This document shows positions 1,893 through 27,109 of a stretch of 40,942 nt of DNA, piece after piece. Below the pieces are notes generated by a model. It was not told the DNA's origin, did no database searches, and saw only the letters and a program-made list of their open reading frames with translations. Source of the stretch: Neptunomonas sp. (lineage in GTDB: Bacteria > Pseudomonadota > Gammaproteobacteria > Pseudomonadales > Balneatricaceae); the NCBI RefSeq assembly GCF_016744175.1, contig NZ_JADGEV010000027.1:1-40942 (forward strand), read 5' to 3'. Made by a program: the position numbers and the translations under genes. How positions within the stretch are numbered: position 1 is the first letter of the stretch; every line of letters begins with the position of its first letter.

Positions 1893-3059
1893 ATGGCAGA
1901 CGGTTACGAGATACGCGGCAACACGGTGCGGGTTTACTTTAGGTTTGATGGCGAGCTCTGCAGAGAGAAAATAGGGGCCGCCACCGATAAGAACACCGAA
2001 CATGCCAAACGCCTGGCACAAATCATCAATTATGAGATCGACGCGGGAACGTTCGACTACGCCAGGCATTTTCCCGACTCGCCCAGGGTTAAAAACTCCA
2101 CCTTTGGTTATTACCTGGATCTATTGCTTTCCATCAAGAAAAACCAACTGGCCGCCAGCAGCTACCGTGGCGAAGAGCAAAAATCCCGTGCGCACATTCG
2201 CCCTAAATGGGGCAGTCTCACCATTGATAAAATCGACCATATCGAGGTGCAGCAGTGGGTACAAGATGAACTCAGCGTAAAGCTTGGCAACAAAACCATA
2301 AAAGATATTATCAGCATCATGCGCCAAACGTTTGATCTGTACAGCACCCGCAATAAAACCGCATTCAACCCCACAACGGGCATCAAAATAAAACTACCCG
2401 ACACACCAGACCCTGAGCCATTTACTCTGCAGGAGATGCAGAAAATATTCAGCACGCCCACCGATCGCATCCAGGAACTAAACCTAATGAAATTTATGAT
2501 CTGGGACGGCCCACGGGTAAGTGAAGCGCTGGCGTTAGCCTGGGAGGATGTTGTAAGTGTCGAAAAGGGCATAATTCGCTACCAGCGCGCCAAAGTGCTG
2601 GGCAAGTACAAAATAACAAAAACGAGGCGTTCCACACGTACACACACGCTCCTAAAACCGGCCCGTGAGGCGTTGCAGGCACAATTCAGGCTAACAGGCC
2701 AACTGCCATCGATAGAGGTTGATATAACCGACAGAGACAACCGCACGGTGCGTAAACAAAAGATAAGGCCGGTGTTTCTGAACTCACAATCATTAAAGCC
2801 CCATGATGGTGACCAGAACATAAGAGAACGATTCTGGCAAACCCACCTAAAAAACGCGGCGGTACCATATCGCGCACCCAGCCAGGCACGCCATACATTC
2901 ATAAGCCAAATGCTATCAACCGGAGTCGTGCCGCTGCACTGGATAGCACAGCACGTTGGCCACACCACAACAGACATGATTCAGAAGACATACGGAAAAT
3001 GGATAAAATCAGACGGCGCAGATATGCACGCAACGATAGAATCAATATTTAAGCTGTAA
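1893..3059 (+). CDS. Tyrosine recombinase (phage/island integrase)
   Basis: 388-residue site-specific recombinase. Order of domains: an N-terminal arm-binding-like region (about 1-45, starting GYEIRGNTVRVYFRF, as in phage integrases with a DUF3596-type N-terminus), a SAM-like core-binding domain (about 65-170) and the catalytic domain (about 185-385). Visible catalytic residues are Arg in GPRVSEAL, Arg-His in ARHTF, His in QHVGH and the nucleophilic Tyr in TYGKW. The usual first His of HxxR is Ser here (SQARH). It is too long and lacks the features of integron integrases, so it probably moves the island rather than the cassettes. GGGGA (1884-1888) precedes the ATG. The gene ends about 210 bp from the 3' end of tRNA-Ser. 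Its codon use is more C/G-rich than that of the cassettes. Confidence 0.9.
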   Translation: MADGYEIRGNTVRVYFRFDGELCREKIGAATDKNTEHAKRLAQIINYEIDAGTFDYARHFPDSPRVKNSTFGYYLDLLLSIKKNQLAASSYRGEEQKSRAHIRPKWGSLTIDKIDHIEVQQWVQDELSVKLGNKTIKDIISIMRQTFDLYSTRNKTAFNPTTGIKIKLPDTPDPEPFTLQEMQKIFSTPTDRIQELNLMKFMIWDGPRVSEALALAWEDVVSVEKGIIRYQRAKVLGKYKITKTRRSTRTHTLLKPAREALQAQFRLTGQLPSIEVDITDRDNRTVRKQKIRPVFLNSQSLKPHDGDQNIRERFWQTHLKNAAVPYRAPSQARHTFISQMLSTGVVPLHWIAQHVGHTTTDMIQKTYGKWIKSDGADMHATIESIFKL

Positions 3060-3272: not shown

Positions 3273-3360
3273 TGGCGGTCAGGGAGGGATTCGAACCCTC
3301 GATACCTTGCGGTATACACACTTTCCAGGCGTGCTCCTTCGGCCACTCGGACACCTGACC
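3273..3360 (-). tRNA. tRNA-Ser (anticodon GGA)
   Basis: An 88-nt class II tRNA on the minus strand. The acceptor stem GGTCAGG/CCTGACC, discriminator G and encoded CCA (complement of 3273-3275) are visible. So are a long variable arm (TATACCGCAAGGTA), a T-loop GGTTCGAATCC and an anticodon loop CTGGAAA reading GGA for serine UCC/UCU codons. Its 3' end faces the island integrase, so it is the probable attachment site, regenerated by the island after insertion. Confidence 0.95.
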
Positions 3361-24240: not shown

Positions 24241-25278
24241 ATGGATAGTTTGATTGATAAGGTTACTTATTTAGCGCCGTCACTGGCGATCAGTGTGGTG
24301 GTGATTGCGTTGCTATTAACAGCGAATTGGGCTTTGTTGGGACGCCACCCTGAATTAGGTAATGAGAAAAAACTTCCAAGGCAGCTCACTTTGCTTGCGC
24401 TAACACTTATTGGTTTTGTCGTGATTACTTTTGCGCTGCCCGTGAGTGATACCGCGCGTAACCAAGTTATAACGCTTGTTGGTGTATTGCTATCAGGGAT
24501 TGTTGCATTCTCATCGACAACCTTTGTAGCCAACTTTATGGCAGGGATTATGTTACGTATGAATAGACCATTTAAAACCGGTGATTTTATACGGGTAGAA
24601 GATTACTTTGGGCGCGTATCTGAGCGTGGCTTATTTGATACTGAAATTCAGAGCGAGCATCGTGCGCTTATTACCTTGCCTAATCTATACCTTGTGTCTC
24701 GTCCGGTAGAAGTTATTAGTAAGTCGGGTGCGATTATTTCGAGTACTTTAACCTTGGGCTATGACATCCACTATTCGCGGATTGAGTCATTGTTGATCTT
24801 GGCAGCAAAAGCGACAGATCTAAAGGATCCTTTTGTTCAGGTAATTGAGCTAGGTAATGATGCCGTCACCTACCGGGTGAGTGGGTTATTAGTCGATGTA
24901 AAAAGCATGCTAACGACCCGCTCTCAATTACATCGAGCAATGTTGGATGCATTGCATGATGGTGCTGTAGAGATAATATCCCCTACCTTTGTTAATCAAC
25001 GACGTTTGGATGATCATTTAAAAATAGTACCGGGTGCTGGGATTAGGGAGTCTGTAAAAGCTTCTACAACGCCTGAAGAAATCGTGTTCGATAAAGCTGA
25101 AAAAGCAGAGCAGCAAGAAGCGGCCCAAGATCGCTTAAAAAAGGAACTTCAAGTTTTAGGTGATCAATTGAATGCGTCTAGTGGTGATGAAAAAGCTAAA
25201 ATTGAGCTCCATATAGAACAAATACGACAACAGCTTGAGAACGTTAGCGAGCAAAGAAAGAAGGCAAAACAAGAGTAA
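24241..25278 (+). CDS. MscS-family mechanosensitive ion channel
   Basis: 345 residues from ATG 24241, supported by GAGG 5-9 nt upstream; an in-frame ATG at 24187 lacks this. Three hydrophobic segments (about 10-30, 45-65, 75-110) end in the pore-lining, Gly/Ala-rich helix (LSGIVAFSSTTFVANFMAGIMLR). The MscS beta domain follows (PFKTGDFIRVEDYFGRVSERGLFDTEI, with NLYLVSRPV) and then an alpha/beta domain. The last 70 residues are a charged coiled coil rich in K/E/Q, longer than in minimal MscS. It probably releases solutes on hypo-osmotic shock. It diverges from nasA but no regulatory link is evident. Confidence 0.92.
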   Translation: MDSLIDKVTYLAPSLAISVVVIALLLTANWALLGRHPELGNEKKLPRQLTLLALTLIGFVVITFALPVSDTARNQVITLVGVLLSGIVAFSSTTFVANFMAGIMLRMNRPFKTGDFIRVEDYFGRVSERGLFDTEIQSEHRALITLPNLYLVSRPVEVISKSGAIISSTLTLGYDIHYSRIESLLILAAKATDLKDPFVQVIELGNDAVTYRVSGLLVDVKSMLTTRSQLHRAMLDALHDGAVEIISPTFVNQRRLDDHLKIVPGAGIRESVKASTTPEEIVFDKAEKAEQQEAAQDRLKKELQVLGDQLNASSGDEKAKIELHIEQIRQQLENVSEQRKKAKQE

Positions 25279-25378
25279 CACTTGATTAGAAAACTGAAGT
25301 GGATCGTTGATTCGGACATGATTTTTGGCTTGGTGGTACTCGCGAAGTGGGCATGCATAAAATAAAAAGATAACGCTA
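25279..25378. other. Spacer between mscS-like gene and sRNA promoter
   Basis: No gene is seen. The last 25 bases (ATAAAATAAAAAGATAAC, around 25357-25374) are A-rich and could act as an UP element for the promoter that follows. Confidence 0.35.
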
Positions 25379-25407
25379 TTGATTCTGATTATCATTTGCG
25401 TTAATAT
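25379..25407 (+). promoter_or_regulatory. Sigma-70 promoter overlapped by a Fur box
   Basis: TTGATT (25379-25384) and TAATAT (25402-25407) are exactly 17 bp apart. Between and over them lies GATTCT-GATTAT-C-ATTTGC (25381-25399), matching 14 of 19 positions of the Fur consensus GATAATGATAATCATTATC. Fur bound with iron would block RNA polymerase here. Transcription would start near 25413. Confidence 0.75.
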
Positions 25408-25412
25408 GGTTT

Positions 25413-25532
25413 TGCTTAACGAGTTAAGTCAGGTCCCACCTCTGATTTGCTTCATCTTCCTTTGTTGGTGCAGGCCACAAAGGAACACGGTTCTTGTCAT
25501 TTACAGGGTAACCTTCGGGTTACCCTTTTTTT
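25413..25532 (+). ncRNA. Candidate Fur-regulated small RNA (RyhB/PrrF-like in logic)
   Basis: A roughly 120-nt transcript is predicted between a well-spaced promoter with a Fur box and an intrinsic terminator. It contains a strong hairpin, TTCCTTTG (25457-25464) with CAAAGGAA (25478-25485), extended by TGG/CCA around a TGCAGG loop; GAAC/GTTC just after it offers an alternative pairing. Ahead of the hairpin is an unpaired C/U-rich stretch (CCCACCTCTGATTTGCTTCATC) suited to pair with ribosome sites. The ORF across the region has no ribosome site and crosses the terminator. Iron-repressed sRNAs such as RyhB, PrrF and NrrF have this arrangement; I do not recognise its primary sequence as any of them. 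Confidence 0.65.
25506..25532 (+). terminator. Intrinsic terminator with UUCG loop
   Basis: GGGTAACC (25506-25513), TTCG loop and GGTTACCC (25518-25525) form a perfect 8-bp stem, followed by seven T residues on the plus strand only. It lies 230 bp after the MscS-type gene, so it more likely ends the candidate sRNA. Confidence 0.93.
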
Positions 25533-25912: not shown

Positions 25913-27109
25913 ATGATTATGTTAAAACTGAACGGGACTCTGACCCATTTTTCAAACCCTGTAGCTAACAGTAAAAATGTATATTCTGATGCACAGCGAG
26001 ATGTGATCAGTATTGCCAAAGCGGCTAATGCGATTTCAGATATCAAAACGTGGCCGGCGTACTCCGAAACCCCTTTGCATTCATTAGCAGCCATGGCAAA
26101 AGATGCGGGTTTGGGTGCGCTTTGGTATAAAGATGAGTCGCAACGTTTTGGTTTAAAAAGCTTTAAAGCATTAGGCGGCGCATATGCTGTGGCTTGCCAG
26201 TTGCAAAATGTTTTACAAGCTCAGCTGGGTAAGCGTCCAAGCATTGCTGAATTATTAGATGGACAACTAAAAGACGCCTTATCTGAGATAGTAGTAAGCT
26301 GTGCAACCGATGGTAATCATGGTCGTTCTGTTGCTTGGGGCGCGCAAATGTTTGGTTGTGGCTGTGTTATTTATATTCATCGAGATGTGTCTGAAGGCCG
26401 TAAACAAGCCATGCAAGCATTTGATGCTGAAGTGATTCGTATCACGGGTAACTATGATGAATCCGTACGTCAAGCAGACCTAGATGCTAAAGCGAATGGG
26501 CGTATCATTGTTTCTGATACTAGCTATGAGGGTTACATGGAAGTGCCTAAAGATGTTGCTTTAGGTTATACCGTCATGCTGGCTGAAATTGTTGAGCAGC
26601 TAGAAGGTGAAATCCCAACTCACGTGTTCATTCAAGGCGGTGTGGGTGGTTTGGCTTCAGCGGTAGCGGGTTATTTCTGGGATCTTTGGGGAGAGCGACG
26701 TCCGCGTTTTGTTGTTGTTGAACCTGTTGAGGCAAACTGCCTGCAGCTTAGTGCTAAAGCAGGTAAGCCGGTAGTCGTTGATGGTGACTTGAATACCTTA
26801 ATGGCAGGCTTGGCGTGTGGAGAAGTATCTGCGCTTGCATGGGAGATTCTATCTAATGGTGCTGATGACTTTATGACCCTAAGTGAAGAAGCCGTTGCTG
26901 AAACAATGCGAATGCTGGCGACAGGTTATAAAAGTGACCCTGCAATTGAGGCAGGTGAGTCAGCGGTACCTGGTTTGGCTGCAGTGGTTATCGGAGCCCA
27001 GCAAGTTGAGTTTTCGAGTGCTCTAAATTTGAATGCTCAAAGTAAAGTGCTTGTTATAGGTACCGAAGGCGCTACAGATCCTGAACTCTATAAGCAACTG
27101 GTTGGCTAA
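25913..27109 (+). CDS. dpaL: Diaminopropionate ammonia-lyase
   Basis: About 398 residues, the usual length. This PLP enzyme converts D- or L-2,3-diaminopropionate to pyruvate and two ammonia. The fold-type II motifs are intact: RFGLKSFKALGGAYA with the PLP lysine, TDGNHGRSVAWGA, the long QGGVGGLASA phosphate loop, and the acidic DTSYEGYMEVP of this subfamily. AAAGG is 5 nt before ATG 25913; ATG 25919 is also possible. It ends in its own terminator, and the next gene on the minus strand is an Lrp-type regulator. Together with the M20 hydrolase downstream this recalls the E. coli ygeX-ygeY pairing. Confidence 0.93.
   Translation: MIMLKLNGTLTHFSNPVANSKNVYSDAQRDVISIAKAANAISDIKTWPAYSETPLHSLAAMAKDAGLGALWYKDESQRFGLKSFKALGGAYAVACQLQNVLQAQLGKRPSIAELLDGQLKDALSEIVVSCATDGNHGRSVAWGAQMFGCGCVIYIHRDVSEGRKQAMQAFDAEVIRITGNYDESVRQADLDAKANGRIIVSDTSYEGYMEVPKDVALGYTVMLAEIVEQLEGEIPTHVFIQGGVGGLASAVAGYFWDLWGERRPRFVVVEPVEANCLQLSAKAGKPVVVDGDLNTLMAGLACGEVSALAWEILSNGADDFMTLSEEAVAETMRMLATGYKSDPAIEAGESAVPGLAAVVIGAQQVEFSSALNLNAQSKVLVIGTEGATDPELYKQLVG

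Follow-up and report, generated by a model that had tools for sequence, protein, structure and literature searches.

A candidate Fur-controlled small RNA with complementarity to sdhC and gltA in Neptunomonas and related marine bacteria

Locus and architecture of the candidate RNA

The window, as the whole analysed stretch of 40,942 nucleotides is called here, comes from a 4.2 Mb genome of the genus Neptunomonas, which NCBI places in the Oceanospirillaceae (related MAG records use Nitrincolaceae). The candidate, at 25379-25532, lies between a gene for an mscS-like channel (24241-25278) and a PLP-enzyme gene with a Pfam PALP match (25913-27109), which we take to be dpaL-like, all on the plus strand. 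The order mscS-RNA-dpaL is kept in N. japonica (G003) and N. antarctica (G001), and the copy in G004 adjoins dpaL, the fetched stretch containing no mscS; neither a dpaL nor an mscS match was found beside copies L007, L008, L020, L026, L027, L029, L031, L097 and L098. Two short, mechanically called ORFs (55 and 62 aa) overlap the region on the plus strand. Relatives with 95% mean identity are separated by single-base indels, which makes coding unlikely and agrees with the initial annotation, in which no ORF explained the region. Elsewhere in the window, a phage-integrase gene (1893-3059) lies beside a minus-strand tRNA gene (3276-3360), and a tail-collar-like match, below the cut-off, falls at 160-828; the segment 160-3360 may be one end of an integrated element.

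The sigma-70-like promoter on the plus strand at 25379-25407 (-35 TTGATT, 25379-25384; -10 TAATAT, 25402-25407) has the 17-base spacer initially annotated and agrees with the consensus at 8/12 bases; it is absent from the list of our consensus promoter scan, which needs at least 9/12. An identical promoter precedes the three closest copies (L003, the first L004 copy and L005), and the second L004 copy has a changed -10. A putative Fur box covers the promoter (25375-25394), with a 7-1-7 core, TGATTCTGATTATCA, at 25380-25394. Scored against what we take to be the 19-base Fur consensus, the match of 14/19 at 25375-25393, overlapping the promoter, was recovered as first described (15/19 on the other strand), and the match of 12/14 to TGATAATnATTATCA at 25380-25394 is not equalled anywhere else in the window. 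The genome contains 82 sites with at most two mismatches to the Fur pattern, versus 42 for a reversed control pattern, so the box in isolation is weak evidence; its conservation makes the case.

A small RNA of about 120 nt is predicted on the plus strand from 25414 (start placed from the -10) to 25532 (end placed from the T run), on the basis of fold and conservation. Folding of the 121 nt that start at 25414 gives -38.5 kcal/mol, versus -25.6 for shuffled sequences (z -4.0; 0/200 shuffles as good), and three predicted hairpins, for each of which a mean z was obtained over 22 copies. Hairpin 1, at the 5' end (25421-25453, mean z -2.4), is variable in sequence and ends in a CUUCA motif (25450-25454) that is conserved in alignment A1 and reads CUUCAC in many relatives. 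Hairpin 2 (25457-25485, mean z -3.5) is the strong internal hairpin already noticed, and shows one C-G/U-A double change within Neptunomonas. On its 3' side lies a conserved seed, CACGGUUCUUGUCAUUU (25486-25502), with complementarity to sdhC and gltA; it is predicted to be unpaired in the window copy, within an unpaired conserved stretch at 25486-25504. The intrinsic terminator (25505-25532, mean z -4.1) bears out the UUCG terminator proposed about 120 nt from the promoter: its stem, AGGGTAACC-TTCG-GGTTACCCT, forms 9 pairs at 25505-25526, followed by T to 25532. The segment that the initial annotation had put forward for target prediction, 25430-25456, is not the conserved seed, and most of it falls within predicted hairpin 1.

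The hairpins diverge in sequence yet keep folding. Among the 22 copies of A1 folded in parts, z was below -1 in 19 for hairpin 1, 20 for hairpin 2 and 21 for the terminator; the window and L029 rows were mis-split in this comparison with shuffles, which lowers their hairpin-2 score. RNAalifold returned zero consensus pairs on the MAFFT alignment A1, in our opinion because the variable hairpins are misaligned in it. Over five Neptunomonas rows, pair counting detected a single double change, not clearly in excess of shuffles (95/500). The unpaired probability of the seed was 0.87 in the window copy, with a mean of 0.62 over 31 of the 36 copies (five g7 copies left out) and values of 0.33-0.48 in the nine g7 and g11 copies folded.

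Distribution and conservation of the copies

We read 36 copies, distributed over four genera of one family: Neptunomonas (8), g16 (14), g7 (8) and g11 (6). Genus g16 appears to consist of Osedax symbionts and related MAGs, with copies identical in sequence, and in G110 also in position, to those of Osedax symbiont Rs2. Copies were present in 7/8 Neptunomonas genomes, 7/7 of g16, 4/4 of g7 and 6/11 of g11; the set leaves out a third copy in G114, and the remaining genomes of the family were covered less deeply. A DNA search detected full-length copies in four of the eight genomes of the genus, with a tandem pair in N. japonica, and the reading of loci L007, L008 and L020 added three further Neptunomonas genomes; in the eighth, G007, two sites were counted with up to two mismatches. 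Across the 116 genomes of the family search, the 3' part and terminator turned up in 7/7 g16 genomes, with up to three matches each, and several of these genomes carry two or three copies. Pattern searches and fetched stretches added g7, whose four genomes each have a tandem pair, as well as g11, for which L033 was included. One copy was found in the window genome, together with four further sites with up to two seed mismatches. The seeds of tandem copies (L004/L108 in N. japonica and L142-L145 in g7) are separated by 234 to 790 nt, and a PrrH-like read-through transcript would be possible from such copies. A scan of 390 genomes of the order with model R1 (8 candidates scored in each) yielded three weak matches outside the genus, none of which has a seed followed by a terminator; they were dropped.

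The copies of Neptunomonas and g16 share a common plan of Fur box and promoter, hairpin 1, CUUCAC or CUUCAU, hairpin 2, CACGGUUCUUGUCAUU and terminator, and most of them have a 5' GGCUCGYAAG. In g7 and g11, the middle part is longer and different, and the seed is GGCUCUUGUCAUU. A Fur-like box lies upstream at a score of at least 11/14 in 32/36 copies and at least 12/14 in 26/36 (two at 13, 24 at 12, six at 11, two at 10 and two, L044 and L047, at 9), counts that do not represent 36 separate tests, as the copies are related by kinship. Among random stretches of 180 bases from the longer loci, 27/2158 scored 11/14 and 0/2158 scored higher. The g16 copy L044 (G114 C45, at about 99.9 kb) combines its weak Fur box with a damaged terminator and a changed base in the seed, and is probably decaying.

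An exact-pattern scan (CTTCA, gap, seed) of one genome per species, across 84,980 species, returned 50 sites in 47 stretches, 18 of them in the family of Neptunomonas and 32 elsewhere; the seed pattern was exact, and more diverged relatives would escape it. A Fur-like box of at least 11/14 accompanied 15/18 family sites and 0/32 of the others, and a T run 18/18 and 2/32, respectively. Relatives conserve the promoter, Fur-like box, hairpins and terminator as a set, the comparison by which the initial annotation had proposed to check its candidate.

Complementarity of the seed to translation starts

The sdhC gene has a GUG start in a RAGAGCCGUG-like or UGAGCCGUG context in 15/15 genomes, and pairing of the seed with this start region was predicted in all 15, at -17.1 to -23.1 kcal/mol (one seed per genus, G007 included). 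In the window genome, seed positions 25486-25497 give 12 contiguous pairs across the start codon, or 15 around one bulged base. Where the seed differs from genus to genus, the pairing is mostly retained by G-C or G-U; in the AACGG copies of g7, the outermost pair is lost. Per 1000 shuffled seeds, 38 were as good in G000, 0 in G005 (N. marina), 4 in G045, 1 in G066 and 65 in G109, the pairing being only moderately better than shuffles in the window genome and weak in G109, a g16 genome. As sdhC leaders are conserved, the pairings are not independent across species.

The divergently transcribed neighbour of sdhC is gltA, the start of which is preceded by AAUGAUAGGAGCC. Seed positions 25489-25502 form 14 contiguous pairs with its ribosome site in the window genome. 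Fourteen contiguous pairs were found in five genomes of the Neptunomonas genus, G066 and G076, and 11-13 in G002, G005, G006 and G042. Shuffles were as good in 0/300 cases in G000, G001, G003 and G004, and also in G007 (with the G000 seed) and G076; the corresponding counts were 10 for G002, 4 for G005, 2 for G006, 3 for G042 and 1 for G066, and the pairing energy in G045 was -19.9. The match is missing in three g16 genomes (53/300 shuffles as good in G112 and 49/300 in G114; energy of -12.0 in G109), although the g16 seed is unchanged. The stretch AUAGGAGCC and its flanks before gltA (L252, G000 C11 and orthologous leaders) are kept in Neptunomonas, g7 and g11, with 11-14 bases fitting the seed, and the stretch is replaced in the three g16 genomes examined.

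The seed was ranked against a sample of 350 genes, about 10% of the genome, which included the window and, deliberately, the sdhC region; sdhC ranked 2nd and gltA 3rd, the top rank going to a 112-aa frame. The gltA match emerged post hoc, unpredicted, in the stretch sampled for sdhC. This sample replaced an earlier background of 543 translation starts, which was discarded as it contained loci fetched for the seed pattern. The start region of a gene for a [2Fe-2S] thioredoxin-like subunit (L244 7939-8430; Pfam PF01257) also pairs well (6th of 350), and this gene is a possible further iron-protein target. The iron-using proteins encoded in the window, which the initial annotation had put forward as targets, are not favoured: ccoG ranked 46th, the nasA-like gene 146th and hemerythrin 180th of 350, and the start of nirB lies beyond the window; nirD, ranked in addition, came 158th. 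The segment 25430-25456, suggested earlier as the target-binding stretch, displays no clear excess of pairing (shuffles as good: sdhC 58/500, sodB 268/500, gltA 432/500). With the seed, sodB ranked 38th of 351 in the window genome, with 235/1000 shuffles as good, and was rejected there as a main target, the pairing being unremarkable. It pairs well in g7 (3/1000 shuffles as good in G045; -20.4 in G042), where it may be a target; an Fe/Mn superoxide dismutase match was present in the 12 other genomes tested and in none of the g16 genomes G109, G112 and G114. A scan of 12 genomes for near-perfect complements of the seed found 11 sites besides the sRNA copies, with no recurring target.

Interpretation and relation to known iron-responsive RNAs

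Gene anatomy, conservation, Fur-like box, folding, seed-target complementarity and the presence of hfq in the genome were all obtained by computation. They point, with good probability, to a trans-acting, Fur-repressed, iron-sparing small RNA at 25379-25532, acting on sdhC and gltA. By its sequence, the candidate would belong to the functional class of Fur-controlled iron-sparing sRNAs, having a Fur-box promoter, a non-coding RNA that ends at a terminator and complementarity to an iron-enzyme start. We infer the steps of transcription, Fur binding, Hfq binding and repression as follows. When iron is plentiful, Fe-Fur would cover the promoter; when it is scarce, Fur would be lifted and the RNA of about 120 nt made, ending at the UUCG terminator. 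The seed (25486-25502), near the terminator, would then pair, probably with the help of Hfq, over the GUG start region of sdhC and at the ribosome site of gltA, the divergently transcribed gene for citrate synthase; in some species sodB would be a further target. This pairing would block ribosome entry, such that the targets are not translated. Succinate dehydrogenase, to which SdhC belongs, contains iron-sulphur and haem, and the predicted outcome is that iron is saved and the citrate cycle slowed. The initial proposal of a Fur-controlled sRNA that lowers iron-using enzymes is supported by the joint conservation of the elements and by the seed complementarity to the sdhC start.

The RNA could instead act in cis, as leader or attenuator for the dpaL-like gene (25913-27109), or prolong the 3' end of the mscS-like gene (24241-25278), a reading suggested by the shared plus-strand orientation of the three, by the gene order kept in N. 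japonica and N. antarctica and by dpaL beside the G004 copy. We consider it highly improbable: the same RNA has other neighbours at nine copies, it has its own promoter and Fur box, and its terminator ends about 380 nt upstream of dpaL. There is equally little likelihood that the RNA responds to another signal and has its Fur box by chance. In the genome, such boxes outnumber the control pattern only about twofold (82 versus 42), but a Fur-like box is kept before 32/36 copies in four genera, amid changing surroundings, and is missing at all 32 unrelated seed matches.

Compatible with a trans-acting iron-sparing RNA, and a little better supported than its denial, is the idea that the RNA is a true but diverged member of the PrrF family by common descent; descent from a PrrF-like RNA is plausible, if unproven. 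Below the 90-bit gathering cut-off of Rfam PrrF (RF00444), tandem matches were obtained in G103, of the same family (51.2 and 39.2 bits), and in G116, of the same order (84.4 and 68.3 bits), with a further match in G121, also of the order (62.4 bits). Copies of the PrrF type in these three genomes have CACGGUU just before the terminator, except for one G116 copy, and can pair with their own sdhC starts at -17.8 to -18.0 (shuffles as good per 1000: 54 in G103, 66 in G116 and 10 in G121). An RNA in G046 (29.2 bits) seems to join a GCUUCAC-hairpin with UAAUCACGG and looks intermediate, and the tandem copies of N. japonica and g7 recall the PrrF arrangement. Against common descent, the PrrF model gave no match in the window at E values up to 10, and none in 30 of the remaining 35 copies at E values up to 1 or 5; its match to the G006 copy (17.6 bits, E 3.1) is at chance level. 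Of the PrrF core in the Rfam consensus, CUCAUCAGGCUAAUCACGG, only CACGGUU is common to the window RNA. The PrrF-type RNAs have no excess gltA pairing (66, 134 and 53 of 300 shuffles as good), and a common sdhC target could yield the same short seed by convergence. Model R1 also misses the PrrF-type copies, which says little, since all g7 and most g11 copies were missed too. As Rfam defines PrrF, the window RNA falls outside it.

Sequence drift makes iron-sparing sRNAs difficult to trace. More tentatively, and at somewhat less than even chances, the RNA may represent a separate iron-sparing family belonging to one marine family, Neptunomonas and its kin, with three copies in a bone-worm symbiont and a 17-nt seed held in place by the divergent sdhC and gltA; PrrF and this RNA would have kept the same CACGGU-sdhC contact while the rest drifted. 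Iron starvation would then shut citrate-cycle entry and the succinate step together. PrrF-like copies (in G103) and the new form (in four other genera) seem to occur within a single bacterial family, and both retain the sdhC-pairing motif, such that the shared descent of iron-sparing sRNAs, and their retention by their targets, can be asked about directly. The copies are unannotated candidate regulators in Neptunomonas and Osedax symbionts.

The kind of regulator is already well known; what would be new is an undescribed, probably Fur-controlled sRNA in marine bacteria. The suggestion that it was undescribed holds for Rfam, with which no iron sRNA was found on the window and the 30 copies scanned at gathering and permissive thresholds; scores for MicX, MicC and Xoo8 were far below the cut-off, and these identities were rejected. 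In the open-licence literature, we found no published sRNA work on Neptunomonas or Osedax symbionts, no RyhB in Marinobacterium and no Oceanospirillales paper among those listed. RyhB of enterobacteria (RF00057) resembles the window RNA in its role, as a Fur-repressed RNA lowering iron-using enzymes, but its Rfam model gives no match. NrrF of Neisseria, likened to the window RNA by description, is reportedly an iron-sparing sRNA with sdhC among its targets. The same applies, again by description, to BrrF of Burkholderia, as presented in the available text of PMC7377471, where BrrF differs in lying downstream of hemP and ending without a stem-loop. PrrF1 and PrrF2 of Pseudomonas differ from the window RNA in its lack of an Rfam match and of the CUCAUCAGGCUAAUCACGG core, its seed extended to CACGGUUCUUGUCAUU and the single copy found in the window genome. 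They resemble it in the Fur box over the promoter, a length of about 110-150 nt, the intrinsic terminator, CACGGUU shortly before the terminator and complementarity to the sdhC start, and their tandem or multiple siblings have counterparts in the copies of N. japonica, g7 and several g16 genomes. In P. aeruginosa, the PrrF siblings are arranged in tandem (PMC4211561, available portion), sdhC is an experimentally validated PrrF target and gltA a predicted one with supporting iron responses (PMC8534726, available portion). The window RNA is likely to work as PrrF does.
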